Origin: Tepidanaerobacter acetatoxydans Re1
GTDB lineage: Bacteria; Bacillota; Thermosediminibacteria; Thermosediminibacterales; Tepidanaerobacteraceae
Length of the DNA stretch: 64,000 nt
Direction of reading: 5' to 3'
NCBI RefSeq assembly: GCF_000328765.2
Contig: NC_019954.2
Coordinates: 1,430,501 to 1,494,500, forward strand
Below, in pieces: positions 50,493-62,623 of this stretch (its first letter is position 1; each line of letters starts with the position of its first letter). Made by a program: the position numbers and the translations under genes. The notes below the pieces were generated by a model, which had not been told where the DNA came from, did not search any database, and was given only the letters and a program-made list of their open reading frames with translations.

Positions 50493-52136
50493 CTACCACT
50501 GACTGCTCTTTTTAGCAACTTCAACTAATCCTTCGCGATTCAGCTCATCTAAGATGTATAACTTTCCTCTTGCAGCATCAGTAATCTTGATTAGACAATC
50601 TTTATTAGGTTGGAGGCCAATACAACAGAAATTAATTTTATTTTTTGCAATTTTATCGGCCGCCGAAACAGCATCATTAATTGGGTCACTTGTCCATAAA
50701 GATACTGTAGGTATCCCATCGGTTATAAGCATAATCAGTGGATTTTTTAAATTTTTTTTATTAATATGGCAGATGCCTTTGTCTAAGGCTAATGCCAATG
50801 GTGTTAAACCAGTTGCCACTATCTTATTTATACCTTCTTCCATTATGTCATAGTTTCTTGTAAAAGGAACACAGACATTAACTTCTTTTTCTTGGAAAGC
50901 CATAATACTTACTTGAGTATTTGGCTTTAAGACAAGATATCTTGCCAAATATTTAGCATTTCTAAGCCTAAAACCAGCCATACTAGCACTGGCATCTATT
51001 ATCAAGCAAATGTCTTGCTGTAATTTTGGAGTTCGCTTGATAGCAACTATGTCTTCCTGTTCAATACTGAATTTTTTATTCTCGATATAGCTTCTTACCA
51101 GCGATTTTCTAACAGTTTCCGATATATCCAATTCCTCAGGCCATTCTTCAGAAACATAAGGTTTGCAAATACTTGGTCCGCTTCGATATCCTGTTTCTCT
51201 GCTAGATAAATGGTTGATTGCAAAACCTTTATAGTTATTAATCCTCTGCGGATTCTTTATGGTTCTTTTTAGCACAAACTCTAATTCTCTCTTGTATATC
51301 CTTAAAAATTCTTTTAATTCTTTCCCTTTACTGGTTAAACGGTACTTATTTTGATGTTTGCTTAAAATATTTGTTTGCTCGAAATATTTTATTATATCGT
51401 TAAAGTCATCATTTTTTTCTGTTATATGCAATGCTCTTCCTGATATATCACTCTCAAATTCAAAATTTTTAATTGCATCTTCTACCTCTTTTAAGCTCCC
51501 AAAATACTCAATCATCGCTGTGGTTTCACTAAAAAGGCTATCCTTTTTAGAACAACCGCCATTTTGCTTTAAATATGAATCAGAGTCGGTGGTATATGGT
51601 GACATATCTATGGGAGTATTGCCAGTTTCATGTTTTATTCTCTCAATTTTTCTAAGTTCAACACCCTGCTCTTGAAGAGCCTTTTCCGTCTCGGCAACTA
51701 TTAAAAATATGTTTTCTAATTCTTCATTAGTCATAAATGCTGTTATATGGACATGATTTAAGTGGTTTTTCTTAAGATTTTCGGTTATCCCATAACTTAG
51801 ACTCCCTGTCAGCCGGCCTCCTCCCGATCCTGTCTGAATATCAATATTGTCAATTAAATAATCCAATGAATTTTCTACGAGACTTTTTTTAAGAAAGTCA
51901 GCCATTTGCATCAAATTAAATATCTTTATTTCATGAAACAAATCTACATGAATTATCTCGTTTTCAACAAAACGATAATAAAAGGCTTGACCGGCATCAG
52001 CATTAATGATTATGTTCACATTTTGCGGAGTATCGTAATTGATTGTATGGACTTTTCGACTAACAACAGCTGCTTGACCTACTCTAACACCCTTACCATT
52101 ATTTAACTCCATCTGCAGTTTCTCTATAGAACTCAT
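50493..52136 (-). CDS. VWA domain protein, partner of a MoxR-like ATPase
   Basis: 547 residues. The C-terminal von Willebrand A domain has an intact MIDAS: DASAS at 381-385, Thr in GLTPLA (about 445) and Asp in TDGIP (about 473). The N-terminal 370 residues are not recognised; the region includes a Gly-rich QTGSGGGRLTGSLSYG stretch and a winged-helix-like part (KYRLTSKGKELKEFL). It overlaps the ATPase gene by 4 nt (ATGA). Such pairs resemble BchD/CoxE-MoxR chaperone systems that insert metals or remodel proteins. The client is unknown. Confidence 0.8.
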   Translation of the reverse strand: MSSIEKLQMELNNGKGVRVGQAAVVSRKVHTINYDTPQNVNIIINADAGQAFYYRFVENEIIHVDLFHEIKIFNLMQMADFLKKSLVENSLDYLIDNIDIQTGSGGGRLTGSLSYGITENLKKNHLNHVHITAFMTNEELENIFLIVAETEKALQEQGVELRKIERIKHETGNTPIDMSPYTTDSDSYLKQNGGCSKKDSLFSETTAMIEYFGSLKEVEDAIKNFEFESDISGRALHITEKNDDFNDIIKYFEQTNILSKHQNKYRLTSKGKELKEFLRIYKRELEFVLKRTIKNPQRINNYKGFAINHLSSRETGYRSGPSICKPYVSEEWPEELDISETVRKSLVRSYIENKKFSIEQEDIVAIKRTPKLQQDICLIIDASASMAGFRLRNAKYLARYLVLKPNTQVSIMAFQEKEVNVCVPFTRNYDIMEEGINKIVATGLTPLALALDKGICHINKKNLKNPLIMLITDGIPTVSLWTSDPINDAVSAADKIAKNKINFCCIGLQPNKDCLIKITDAARGKLYILDELNREGLVEVAKKSSQW

Positions 52137-53452
52137 TTTATCAAATCCTCTTCGGTCTTTACATATTCTGTTATCTTTAATTTATCCATTGGTAATGCTT
52201 TTTGCGGCGGCGCTTTTATACTAGGATTAGGTGCTGTGCTGCTTGTGTTTGAACTTTTTGCTGATTCAGCATTTGGGACAAATCGTTGTAAAAGTTTTTT
52301 TAAAAAATCGAAGCTAAAAGTTTTAGAGTTTTTGTTTTTATTCTCATTAATTTCCGAGACTTTAGTAGAATCAGGTAATTTATTTTCATTCTGAATAGAA
52401 GTTTCAACACTAATCGAGTCTTTTTTTATTAGGCTCTTTTTTTCTTCTAAGTTCTGCAATATATTATTTAAGTCTTTCATTTCTACTCTATGTCGTAAAG
52501 CATAGCGTGTAATAAAAATAACATCTTCTATATTTGGATTTCGCTTTAATAGGGCACCTCTTATTTTTGTTCCAAGTAAAGCGGCCTCTACATATCGAAG
52601 GCTTTCTATGCCATAATTGACATATAATGATGCCAAAAGATCTCTTATTTCTTGGGTAGGTTTGAATCTATTTATATTTTTTTTTGCTTCTAAAAATTCT
52701 TTTGTTTTTTGTATTGTTGCTGTATTAACAACGTTTAATACTTCATCACTAAAAATTCTGTTAATTACGCAAGTATCAAGAGGCCTTTCAACGTTTACAG
52801 TAAAATCAAATCGATCTGAGAGTTGGCGCCGAATATTCTCTAACGGGCCAGGATCTTCATCCGGATTTGAGGCAGCCCAAATACTGACTTGAACCGGTAT
52901 TTCTGTAACAGGCAGCCCCGCTTCCTCGATTTGTATTCTCCCAGGTTTTGTTCCCATTGCATCGAGCAGCAGATCAACAATTTCAGGCGAAGTATCAGCG
53001 ATACGATTTATTTCGTCTATAAAAACTATTCCCCGATGTGCCTTTGGAATAGTTCCTAATAAAAGTGCAGCTTCCGGACTTTCTTTCGAAGATATTTTTT
53101 TTAAATCGATACTACCTACAACAGATCCTTTTTTTGCAGAAGGCGAAATTTCTAAAAACGGCATATTAATTCTTTCTACACCGATTTTTTCGATTTCCTC
53201 ACTAGTCAGATTATAATGCTCAGGACAATGGGGATTGGATGGATCACAATTATACAAACACCCCTTTATTCTGTTAATTTTAGGTAAAACTTCTTTATAT
53301 GCTCTTATGATGGTTGTTTTTCCTGTACCCCTTAACCCTTCGGCGTGAATATGAATAGGCGTACCTGTCAAAGATCCGGTTACCGACACATCTAATATAT
53401 CAAAAAGTGAAGCATTACCGGAATGTCTTATTATCTGGGAATAGTTCTTCAT
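52133..53452 (-). CDS. MoxR/ChlI-like AAA+ ATPase
   Basis: 439 residues. Walker A GLRGTGKT at 39-46, Walker B GIVFIDEINRI, sensor 1 WAASNPDED, arginine-finger region IRRQLSDRFDF, close to the magnesium chelatase I subunit. After Walker A a cysteine group (C65, C69, C76) lies in a short insertion and may bind a metal or Fe-S cluster. The C-terminal 100 residues are low-complexity Ser/Asn/Lys-rich and probably disordered. No chlorophyll or cobalamin gene is nearby. Confidence 0.85.
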   Translation of the reverse strand: MKNYSQIIRHSGNASLFDILDVSVTGSLTGTPIHIHAEGLRGTGKTTIIRAYKEVLPKINRIKGCLYNCDPSNPHCPEHYNLTSEEIEKIGVERINMPFLEISPSAKKGSVVGSIDLKKISSKESPEAALLLGTIPKAHRGIVFIDEINRIADTSPEIVDLLLDAMGTKPGRIQIEEAGLPVTEIPVQVSIWAASNPDEDPGPLENIRRQLSDRFDFTVNVERPLDTCVINRIFSDEVLNVVNTATIQKTKEFLEAKKNINRFKPTQEIRDLLASLYVNYGIESLRYVEAALLGTKIRGALLKRNPNIEDVIFITRYALRHRVEMKDLNNILQNLEEKKSLIKKDSISVETSIQNENKLPDSTKVSEINENKNKNSKTFSFDFLKKLLQRFVPNAESAKSSNTSSTAPNPSIKAPPQKALPMDKLKITEYVKTEEDLIK

Positions 53453-53607
53453 AATATATCCCTCACGATTTTTTCATTATTTGTGTGATACCACTATTTT
53501 TTTCATTGTTTATTCAGCATCACCATAGCCCAGTTTTATCTATTAAATATTTTTTCCGAAAAGACTTTTTTTATAACCCATTACCGGCAAATATATCGGA
53601 TAAACGA

Positions 53608-53636
53608 AAAAATACCCTCATTAAGAAGGTATTTTT
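53608..53636 (-). terminator. Terminator after rpmF
   Basis: AAAAATACC/GGTATTTTT stem with inner pairs, T-run on the minus strand, 11 bp past the rpmF stop codon. It ends the DUF177-rpmF transcript before the ATPase-VWA genes. Confidence 0.75.
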
Positions 53637-53646
53637 GTAAAAATTT

Positions 53647-53835
53647 TTAGCTTTTTTTAGCTTCCACTTTTATAACTTCGCGATTTTTGTAGTATCCACA
53701 GTTGGGACATGCCCTGTGGGACAGTTTTGGTTCACGGCACTGGGGACATTCTGAAATCGAAGGCAATGTTAATTTCCAGTGGCTTCTACGAGAACCTTTT
53801 TTGGATTTAGATGTTCTATGTTTAGGATTGGCCAT
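53647..53835 (-). CDS. rpmF: Ribosomal protein L32
   Basis: 62 residues beginning MANPKHRTSKSKKGSRRSHWKL, start ATG 53835 after GAGGAGG. Two CxxC knuckles (CPQC and CPNC) make the zinc-binding form, so this is the C+ L32 type. It follows the DUF177 gene, the classical yceD-rpmF pair. Confidence 0.98.
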   Translation of the reverse strand: MANPKHRTSKSKKGSRRSHWKLTLPSISECPQCREPKLSHRACPNCGYYKNREVIKVEAKKS

Positions 53836-53852
53836 TACAACACCTCCTCTAA

Positions 53853-54359
53853 CTATTCGCTCTTTAATAATTTTTTCAATACTGCAAATCGGGGATCCAA
53901 ATTTTCTGTTTCGCACTTACAAATACTTGTGTTTAAGTTGGCTCCGCACTTAGGACATAATCCCTTGCAATCAGTTTTACATAAAATTTGACTAGGACAG
54001 TTTAAAATAATTTCGTTTACGACTTGAGGATACAGTTCAATTTCCTCACCATCGAATTTTATTAGTTCTTCAGATTGTGCCAAAATATCACTAAATTTCA
54101 GCGAAAAATCCATAGCAAACCGGACCTTAGTTTGTGTAAGACATCTTGAACATAACCCGGTAGCAGTAACTTCAATCTGCCCATCTGCTTGAAATATTCT
54201 GTCTCCCAGATTTTCTATTTTGCCTTTTACCCTTACCGGTCCTACGCTACTGATGCCCTCACGTTTTAAATCTAAATTCATGGTTGGTTGTGTAAAGTCA
54301 AATTCAGCCGTGCTTCCTACTACATGTTTCATTCCTGCCAGACTCAGTTTCACAATCAT
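53853..54359 (-). CDS. DUF177 (YceD) protein
   Basis: 168 residues. The family core VKGKIENLGDRIFQADGQIEVTATGLCSRCLTQTKVRFAMDFSLKF and the zinc-like CPSQILCKTDCKGLCPKCGANLNTSICKC cluster identify it. YceD is linked to 23S rRNA and ribosome assembly and is co-transcribed with rpmF. ATG 54359 is close to its SD; a GTG six bases downstream is possible. Confidence 0.93.
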   Translation of the reverse strand: MIVKLSLAGMKHVVGSTAEFDFTQPTMNLDLKREGISSVGPVRVKGKIENLGDRIFQADGQIEVTATGLCSRCLTQTKVRFAMDFSLKFSDILAQSEELIKFDGEEIELYPQVVNEIILNCPSQILCKTDCKGLCPKCGANLNTSICKCETENLDPRFAVLKKLLKSE

Positions 54360-54382
54360 TCACCCCGAAGAAATTACACTTT

Positions 54383-54411
54383 ATTATATATTTACATAAA
54401 ACCAGTGTCAA
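54383..54411 (-). promoter_or_regulatory. Promoter of DUF177-rpmF
   Basis: Full consensus on the minus strand: TTGACA (54411-54406), 17-nt spacer, TATAAT (54388-54383). The -35 overlaps the ackA stop codon. Confidence 0.85.
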
Positions 54412-55610
54412 GCAGTTTTAACAAGAGACATCGTATCTAAGGCTATCATTAGTTCTTCATTTGTTGGAATAACAAGCGCTTTTGCTTTAGCCTCTTCAAA
54501 AGAAATATCTGCCTGCTTTCCTCTGACTTGGTTTTTAGCTTCATCAATCTTTATTCCTAAATATTCCATATCCTTACAAATCATCTGCCTCATTGTAGCA
54601 GAATTTTCTCCAATACCGCCGGTAAACACAATAGCATCAAGCCCATTCATGATCGCAGCATAGGAACCGATGAATTTTTTAGCTTGATAAGAAAACATCT
54701 TTAAGGCTAAGTCGGCACGTTTATTACCGTTTTTTGCCGCTTCTTCTAAGTCTCTGAAATCACTGCTAACTCCGGAAATTCCATAGACTCCGCATTTTTT
54801 ATTCAGGTACTCGTTCATTTTATCCGGTGATATTCCTTCTTTTTCCATTATAAATGGCACTATTGCCGGATCTATATTGCCACAGCGTGTTCCCATTATA
54901 ATACCTTCCAGCGGCGTAAATCCCATGCTGTTTTCAATAGATTTACCGTTTTTGATCGCTGTTATACTTGAACCATTGCCCAAGTGCAATGTAATCATTT
55001 TTAATTCTTCAATAGGCCTGTTTAACATTTTTGCAGCCTCAGCTGATACAAAGCAATGAGAAGTACCATGAAAGCCGTATCTTCTTACGGCATATTTTTC
55101 ATATAATTCATAAGGTAACCCATACATATAAGCATATTGAGGCATAGTTTGATGAAATGCCGTATCGAACACTCCAACCATCGGAACGTCCGGTAACATC
55201 TCCCGAGCTGCTTCAATACCTACAATGTTAGGCGGATTATGTAATGGAGCAATGGCTACACATTCTTTTAACACATCCATGACTTCATCCGTTATTTTTA
55301 CAGAGCCGGAAAATTTTTCTGCACCATGTACTACGCGATGACCTACTGCTGATATTTCCGAAATATCTTTTAGAACACCGTGATTTTTATCTAAAAGAGC
55401 ATCAAGCATCATTTTTACGGCTACCTTATGGTTTGGAATATTGTCCGATACTTCTATCTTATCTTTACAGTAAGGCATATGCTTGAGCATTCCAACTTCA
55501 AGACCTATTCTTTCCACTAAACCCTTAGCCAAAACTGATTGATCTTTCATATTGAAGAGCTGATATTTCAAAGACGAACTGCCGCAATTGATAACAAGAA
55601 CCTTCAACAA
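54408..55610 (-). CDS. ackA: Acetate kinase
   Basis: Acetyl phosphate plus ADP to acetate plus ATP. 400 residues with the ASKHA signatures [16 protein letters not shown] (residues 4-19), [21 protein letters not shown] and [12 protein letters not shown] start at 55610 after AGGAGG. Together with pta it forms the substrate-level ATP step of acetogenic or fermentative metabolism; the reverse direction would activate acetate. Confidence 0.98.
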
Positions 55611-55630
55611 AAAAACCTCCTAAATTTTTA

Positions 55631-56617
55631 TTAATTTGCTTGCAGAGATGTAATTGCAACCACATTTACGATGTCTTCTACGCTACATCCTCTTGAAAGA
55701 TCATTTATAGGTGCAGCCAAGCCTTGACTTATGGGACCAACTGCCTCTGCTTTTGCAAGCCTTTGCACTAGTTTATAACCAATATTGCCTGCATTAAGAT
55801 CTGGAAATACCAGTATATTGGCTCGTCCCGCAACTGGGCTGCCTGGTGCCTTAGAACTAGCCACCTTAGGAACCAAAGCGGCATCAGCCTGCAATTCACC
55901 ATCCGACAAGAGATTGGGTGCCTGCTGCTTAAGTATTTTAGTGGCTTCAACCACTTTATCTACCATTTCATTTTGAGCACTGCCCTTAGTGGAAAAGGAT
56001 AGCATTGCCACCCTCGGCTCATCGTCCATTAAAGACTCCCATGTTTTTGCAGTAGAAACTGCAATCTCAGCAAGCTGCTTAGCATCCGGATTCGGATTTA
56101 TGGCGCAATCTGCAAAGAGTATATGCCCATTAGACCCAAATTCACAATTAGGTACAATCATCATAAAAGCACTGGATACAACGCCTATACCCGGTGCCGT
56201 TTTAACTATTTGGAACGCTGGCCGGAATACATCTCCGGTCGCTGTAACTGCACCAGCCACCATTCCATCGACATCGTTATTTTTTACCATCAAAGTACCA
56301 TACCATATTGGATTTTTTACCAATTCTCTGGCTTTCTCCATAGTCATACCCTTGTTTTTACGAACTTCGTATAACAAAGTTGCATACTCTTCAGCTTTTG
56401 GTGATAACTCCGGATCGATAATTTCCACACCTGAAAGTTCAAATTCTTTCGATGCGTTTTTAAGGTTATCTACATTTCCCAATAACACTACTCTTGCAAT
56501 TTTTTCCTTTGTAATGATTTCTGCGGCTTTAACGACTCTTTCATCACTTCCCTCGGGAAGAACTATCGTTTTGGGTGATGTCGTTGCACGCTCTCTTATT
56601 TTTTTGATAAAATCCAT
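55631..56617 (-). CDS. pta: Phosphate acetyltransferase
   Basis: Interconverts acetyl-CoA and acetyl phosphate. 328 residues, the short Pta type without the N-terminal regulatory domain. Typical stretches: TTSPKTIVLPEGSDERVVKAAEII, VDGMVAGAVTATGDVFRPA, and FPDLNAGNIGYKLVQRLA near the C-terminus. It precedes ackA by 20 bp in the same transcript. Confidence 0.97.
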   Translation of the reverse strand: MDFIKKIRERATTSPKTIVLPEGSDERVVKAAEIITKEKIARVVLLGNVDNLKNASKEFELSGVEIIDPELSPKAEEYATLLYEVRKNKGMTMEKARELVKNPIWYGTLMVKNNDVDGMVAGAVTATGDVFRPAFQIVKTAPGIGVVSSAFMMIVPNCEFGSNGHILFADCAINPNPDAKQLAEIAVSTAKTWESLMDDEPRVAMLSFSTKGSAQNEMVDKVVEATKILKQQAPNLLSDGELQADAALVPKVASSKAPGSPVAGRANILVFPDLNAGNIGYKLVQRLAKAEAVGPISQGLAAPINDLSRGCSVEDIVNVVAITSLQAN

Positions 56618-56708
56618 TTTTATTACTCCTTCCTTTATGCTACATAAAATATTTTAATTTCATTTTTCATTAATACACACTAATTATTTTGCATACAAGA
56701 CATTGTTA

Positions 56709-62398: not shown

Positions 62399-62623
62399 TT
62401 ATTGAGTTGTCGTTCCGCCACTTGCACGTCTTTGATAATCCTCAATCATTTTTCTTACCATATGGCCACCGACAGCACCACAATCTCTCGAAGAATAATT
62501 TCCCCAATATCCATCTGCAGGGGCTTGAATTCCAACTTCTTTAGCAACTTCATTTTTAAACTGTTCCATAGCCTTATACGCTTCAGGAACTACAAGCTTA
62601 TTTCTTTTTTGTCCCAATGCCAT
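62399..62623 (-). CDS. Alpha/beta-type small acid-soluble spore protein
   Basis: 74 residues. Both SASP signatures are present: KNEVAKEVGI with the germination protease site region and GYWGNYSSRDCGAVGGHMVRKMI. Coats spore DNA into an A-like form and protects from UV. ATG 62623 after AAGGAGG; a sigma-G-type promoter lies at 62657-62685. Monocistronic with its own terminator. Confidence 0.97.
   Translation of the reverse strand: MALGQKRNKLVVPEAYKAMEQFKNEVAKEVGIQAPADGYWGNYSSRDCGAVGGHMVRKMIEDYQRRASGGTTTQ

Follow-up and report, generated by a model that had tools for sequence, protein, structure and literature searches.

The locus under study consists of two genes on the minus strand of the window, by which we mean the whole 64,000-nucleotide stretch of Tepidanaerobacter acetatoxydans Re1 DNA that was analysed; the host genome is a single contig of 2.76 Mb. 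The upstream gene encodes a ChlI-type AAA+ ATPase and the downstream gene a partner protein with a VWA domain (Table 1). Both reading frames are intact and overlap by 4 bp (ATGA), in agreement with a preliminary description of this DNA that had proposed a translationally coupled pair at this place. The closest named relative, a Tepidanaerobacter MAG, carries an ATPase that is 92% identical. The window also contains a gene for a small acid-soluble spore protein (SASP) of the alpha/beta type at 62399-62623 (minus strand); some 9 kb away, it is no direct neighbour of the pair and does not count here as evidence.

Table 1. Features of the ATPase-VWA locus, in window coordinates
Feature	Position	Strand	Basis
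ChlI-type AAA+ ATPase gene, 439 aa	52133..53452	-	Open reading frame; best PDB matches are magnesium-chelatase ChlI
VWA partner gene, 547 aa	50493..52136	-	Open reading frame; AlphaFold model with mean pLDDT 83.6
ATPase motif C65-x3-C69-x6-C76-x2-H79, predicted, probable metal (zinc-like) site	53216..53260	-	Conservation; homology to CobN-linked ChlI
VWA protein, private N-terminal domain, residues 1-172	51621..52136	-	Conservation in 69 proteins; model pLDDT 95
VWA protein, weak winged-helix-like segment, residues 245-283	51288..51404	-	Pfam HTH_45
VWA protein, VWA domain with intact MIDAS, residues 375-522	50571..51014	-	Pfam VWA_2 2.3e-11, VWA 3.4e-8
Predicted sigma-F type promoter, TTATA-N14-GGAAAAAATA	53548..53576	-	Lies about 96-124 bp upstream of the ATPase start codon

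The motifs expected of a complete ATPase, as the gene product had been described, are all conserved: Walker A (GLRGTGKTT), Walker B (FIDEIN), a sensor-1-type motif (ASNPDE) and the arginines R208, R214 and R286 are invariant or nearly so among homologues. The protein matches Pfam PF01078, the ChlI-type AAA+ core, above the gathering score, and its top three PDB sequence matches are ChlI or BchI proteins (magnesium-chelatase ChlI 8osf, E 3.5e-17). In a search of Pfam-A at E values up to 1, neither the AAA_3 (MoxR-type) nor the CbbQ_C model matched it. The original label of MoxR/ChlI-like therefore stands for ChlI and falls, by sequence, for MoxR. Among NCBIfam models the best match was TIGR02442 (putative cobaltochelatase), at 118 bits against a cut-off of 779; TIGR02030 (Mg-chelatase ChlI) gave 88 bits against a cut-off of 467, and the ATPase fell far below every NCBIfam equivalog cut-off. 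With scores this far under the cobaltochelatase and Mg-chelatase cut-offs, no strong match to a characterized system emerged, in keeping with the earlier view of the ATPase as uncharacterized. A profile search of 398 genomes set the family sharply apart, with members at E <= 1e-120 (a few truncated matches excepted) and the next proteins at about 1e-31; the latter behave like ordinary ChlI. In the tree, the ATPase family is parted from the CobN-linked ChlI proteins that form the outgroup by a branch roughly 4.4 substitutions per site long.

The preliminary description had drawn attention to a three-Cys insertion after Walker A. Its cysteines proved to be invariant, C65, C69 and C76 being identical in 79 of 79 ATPase sequences, as is H79, which had been missed. 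The region is no insertion, however, since it aligns almost gap-free with the ordinary ChlI loop (8osf, 6l8d), where the corresponding residues are not Cys. At the equivalent position, CobN-linked ChlI paralogues in other genomes carry GC-x3-C-DP..C-x2-C, and because this motif is homologous, the Cys motif of the pair is a trait inherited within the cobaltochelatase-like branch, with the fourth Cys changed to His. The link to CobN is illustrated by locus L129, in which the gene after the ChlI paralogue reads, by its sequence and size, as CobN. Most simply, the CCCH motif in the ATPase would be a structural site of the zinc type.

In the VWA protein, the MIDAS (DxSxS-T-D) had been called intact, and its residues D381-S383-S385, T445 and D473 are indeed invariant across 69-73 homologues. 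The best PDB sequence match of the protein's profile is the chelatase VWA subunit 2x31, the structural matches of its model are VWA domains, including the NorD VWA (9qh6_G), and its best NCBIfam match is again TIGR02442 (85.7 bits, cut-off 779). The N-terminal half, described beforehand as unfamiliar, kept that character in the profile search: the first 330 residues matched no family model, save for a weak winged-helix match at residues 245-283. This match, to HTH_45, recurs in 23 of 69 members of the family (best value 1.2e-4), with the window protein under the gathering score. Residues 1-172 are confidently predicted by the structural model to fold as a compact domain, and S26, H30, D47, G49, H63, D65, H68, T102, H128, H130, E151 and R162 within it are conserved across 69 proteins. 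A Foldseek search of this N-domain against the PDB returned nothing at E <= 0.001, and its sequence profile found a single PDB match, at E 0.68. VIA-align gave a best Z of 5.5, with several weak rows that include biotin ligases and were taken as uninformative, and such weak matches do not prove that the fold is new. Among 398 genomes, N-domain matches lay nearly all in VWA-sized reading frames and essentially in ATPase-bearing genomes, with essentially no fusions to other proteins beyond those of VWA size.

We surveyed the neighbourhood of the pair in 80 loci and found the ATPase and VWA genes adjacent in nearly all complete ones. In the deep branches of the tree, the pair is located between secD-secF and lapA-recJ-apt-relA, and this secDF-recJ position is that of the ancestral lineage, to which the window belongs. 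The recurring neighbours are yajC, secD, secF, lapA, recJ, apt, relA, dtd and gloB, with other blocks in a relocated clade of 28 loci of the Syntrophomonadaceae/Thermincola/Thermacetogenium type (support 0.992). Several of the Syntrophomonadaceae-type loci encode a GerM-domain (Germane) sporulation protein directly downstream of the pair. The absence of metal-cofactor genes noted at the outset holds more widely, as no enzyme, metal, cofactor or metabolic gene was a recurrent neighbour in the 80 loci, nor did any third gene recur beside the pair. CobN (PF02514) had no match in the window's genome, with 5 of 14 control genomes positive, and the pair was absent from the phage and plasmid collections.

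Several features of gene order vary between groups. When window positions 53450-56620 are set against loci L024-L033, the pair follows pta-ackA-DUF177-rpmF instead of yajC-secDF, so that in this genus the ancestral block has undergone rearrangement on its left. In many of the loci L021-L100, the VWA gene is separated from recJ by a stand-alone LapA-like (DUF1049) gene, and those of the Tepidanaerobacteraceae have a small phasin-like gene directly upstream of the ATPase gene. Genomes of the Thermincola type (loci L040, L047, L049, L054, L061 and L075) have a single ATPase gene with two or three VWA paralogues behind it, as well as a second ATPase locus; one motor with several VWA adaptors suggests several clients.

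We compared the distribution of the pair with that of sporulation genes in two genome samples. The class of Lucifera butyrica was sampled with 250 genomes, of which 26 have the ATPase family (threshold E < 1e-100) and 41 have SpoIVA. All 26 carriers have SpoIVA, counting one genome (G436) in which the match is fragmentary only, and none of the 209 genomes without SpoIVA is a carrier (Fisher p 4e-25, not corrected for phylogeny). In a phylum sample of 398 genomes around the window's lineage, SpoIVA is present in 107 of 109 pair carriers. Both exceptions are fragmented assemblies, one with SigG (G096) and one that also lacks a full-length SigG (G239). The latter forms one family with G172 and G218, in which SpoIVA is fragmentary or missing, which would mean that the assemblies are poor or that sporulation is decaying. 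Among spore formers of the Clostridia type and of the Negativicutes, the pair is widely conserved. In the 398-genome sample it is found in about one third of the SpoIVA-positive genomes and is absent from about two thirds, and for this reason it counts as accessory to sporulation and not as part of its core gene set.

A loss within the genus bears on the same association. One congener of the window's organism (G001, 99% complete) lacks SpoIVA, SASP, SpoIIR and SigG and is apparently asporogenous. Its syntenic locus (L195, G001:C9:352500-357200) retains the pta, ackA, DUF177 and rpmF region and recJ, the pair is missing, and no remnant of it was detected there. This joint loss sidesteps part of the shared-ancestry problem in the co-occurrence counts.

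To score promoters upstream of the ATPase gene, we used the published B. subtilis consensus sequences for sigma-F (GTATA / GGNAANAMTR) and sigma-G (GNATA / CAWAMTA), which were not fitted to the tested upstreams (PMC3416734, Table 4). The test masked the ribosome-binding site and compared 36 non-redundant upstreams of the secDF-recJ lineage against dinucleotide shuffles; the upstream sequences had been inspected beforehand, and the spacer ranges were our choice. The lineage scored z 11.7 for sigma-F and 9.5 for sigma-G (n = 36). Signals for sigma-A (z -0.4) and sigma-K (z -0.1) were absent from the same upstreams, and sigma-E gave a weaker signal (z 2.7 to 4.0, with the secDF-recJ lineage at 4.0). 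The positive control spoIIR, a known sigma-F gene, reached z 8.7 for sigma-F and 5.0 for sigma-G in the same genome group. Controls at recJ, relA, apt, dtd, gloB and the VWA gene were near zero, and most control genes had an absolute z of about 2 or less; somewhat raised sigma-F values were seen for queA (z 4.0, n = 10), secD (2.4) and tgt (2.1). The queA upstreams above shuffles for sigma-F were those of loci L024-L031, L079, L081 and L096.

The promoter predicted in the window matches the published sigma-F consensus at 12 of 13 letters, and its site is a conserved island in a spacer that is otherwise poorly conserved among eight relatives. Other lineages show an equivalent layout with other letters (for example GTATG-N15-GGCCATAATA and GCATT-N15-GGAAACACTA). 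In the relocated lineage (20 non-redundant upstreams from 28 loci), a forespore promoter was absent within 120 bp and within 450 bp. The secDF-recJ lineage, the window included, then has a predicted forespore promoter of the sigma-F/sigma-G type, and the relocated lineage has none.

Sequence and comparison support a gene pair with intact motifs that is confined to spore formers, was lost together with sporulation genes in a congener and, in the ancestral lineage, appears to carry a forespore-type promoter. Because of this near-confinement and the probable switch-on in the forespore, the pair looks like an unrecognized part of spore formation. Of the two roles guessed at in the preliminary description, a chaperone for a metalloenzyme or a sporulation complex, it is the sporulation part that is strongly supported, by SpoIVA co-occurrence, the loss in G001 and the promoters. 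We think it probable that the pair encodes a forespore-expressed AAA+/VWA remodelling machine of endospore formation. Points against it are the relocated lineage with no forespore promoter, the carrier G239, the sigma-E signal, the raised queA and secD controls, the two thirds of spore formers that lack the pair and co-occurrence tests that take no account of phylogeny. By descent the machine would be a side branch of the ChlI/ChlD chelatases, now operating without a catalytic subunit of the CobN/ChlH type. In such a machine, the ATPase would assemble as a ring, on which the VWA protein would be seated and would dock the client via its MIDAS metal site. ATP hydrolysis could then act as it does in NorQ/NorD and ChlI/ChlD, twisting or opening the client, and the private N-domain, with its conserved His and Asp residues, may pick the client or hold a metal or cofactor.

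A narrower form of this explanation, and not an alternative to it, would make the forespore machine one for metal insertion, with a spore metalloenzyme or cofactor as its client. The conserved Cys/His motif of the ATPase and the His/Asp residues of the VWA N-domain point in this direction, as does the promoter evidence, but the CCCH motif is most simply read as a structural zinc site, and we put this form forward only tentatively. A further, likewise tentative version extends to a forespore machine for metal or cofactor insertion in which the VWA N-domain has a new fold that binds metal or is catalytic and a spore protein is readied for dormancy, across Clostridia-like and Negativicutes spore formers. 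The chelatase ancestry could also be taken at face value, as a sign of a vegetative anaerobic metallochaperone or chelatase that places metal into a cofactor or metalloenzyme and was retained by chance in sporulating lineages. The nearest sequence relatives of the pair are indeed subunits of Mg and Co chelatases, the CCCH motif is common to CobN-linked ChlI, and the N-domain has its conserved His and Asp residues. Yet CobN was not found in the genome, the 80 loci offer no recurrent metabolic or cofactor neighbour, the upstreams of the ancestral lineage give a promoter signal of forespore type and none for sigma-A, and the pair and the sporulation genes disappeared jointly in G001, so that we regard a vegetative role as unlikely.

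The distribution itself could be a coincidence, with a clade-restricted gene tracking phylogeny rather than sporulation. Spore formers in the sampled class may cluster phylogenetically, and the Fisher values therefore overstate independence; the promoter evidence, however, is independent of the phylogenetic profile, and the joint loss took place inside one genus, which leaves chance association improbable. Pairs of an ATPase and a VWA protein are also at the heart of the ternary conflict systems described in PMC7159879, and an anti-phage or other conflict system of the MoxR-VWA type would have the same two genes. Against this stand an ATPase without a PADLOC match and a VWA protein with weak winged-helix matches only, a third component that recurs nowhere in the 80 loci, an ancestral place in a housekeeping block in diverse lineages, and the absence of the pair from the plasmid and phage collections. 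A role in conflict is accordingly the reading to which we give hardly any credence.

Known roles of chelatase-lineage AAA+/VWA machines lie in cofactor synthesis and in the assembly of respiratory enzymes. The Carboxydothermus genome paper reportedly includes a phylogenetic profile for sporulation genes. To our knowledge, the main model spore formers lack the pair. Chelatase, VWA and AAA go unmentioned in a 2012 survey of sporulation genes, and a keyword search, which had most subscription journals outside its reach, found no literature linking such an ATPase-VWA pair with sporulation. If the remodelling explanation is true, the forespore programme gains an energy-driven remodelling step, one to which work on the main model spore formers would give no clue if those are without the pair. 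It predicts that the pair is expressed in the forespore and that its deletion leads to a spore defect. We rate what is new here as an AAA+/VWA pair of known kind in an unexpected setting, sporulation.

Among known systems, the pair resembles Mg chelatase (ChlI/BchI with ChlD/BchD) in its ChlI-type AAA+ core, its loop arrangement and its separate VWA partner with a MIDAS. It differs in scoring far under the ChlI and ChlD cut-offs, in having Cys and His in the ATPase loop, in a new N-domain that replaces the AAA half of ChlD and in its occurrence in spore formers, and neither ChlH nor CobN was found in the window's genome. With the CobN-linked ChlI/ChlD proteins of TIGR02442, its best NCBIfam match, it shares a Cys-rich loop after Walker A (GC-x3-CDP..C-x2-C in those proteins), but the pair is two proteins where TIGR02442 is fused, CobN is absent, the fourth ligand is His instead of Cys, and a long tree branch lies between them. 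NorQ/NorD likewise combines an ATPase with a VWA partner that has a MIDAS, and the NorD VWA (9qh6_G) is among the structural matches; that system, whose VWA partner attaches to the ATPase ring and passes a twist on to the client (PMC13036017), supplies the working model for the pair. NorQ is MoxR-like, however, whereas the ATPase of the pair is ChlI-like by sequence, the N-terminal half of the VWA protein is without a recognized relative, and NO reductase genes were not seen in the neighbourhood. The vWA-MoxR ternary conflict systems also co-encode an ATPase and a VWA protein (PMC7159879); unlike them, the pair has no third component and no ATPase match to a defence family, is not mobile and is tied to sporulation. 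From every one of these named systems the pair departs in at least one defining feature, yet it would act like the known AAA+/VWA chaperones.
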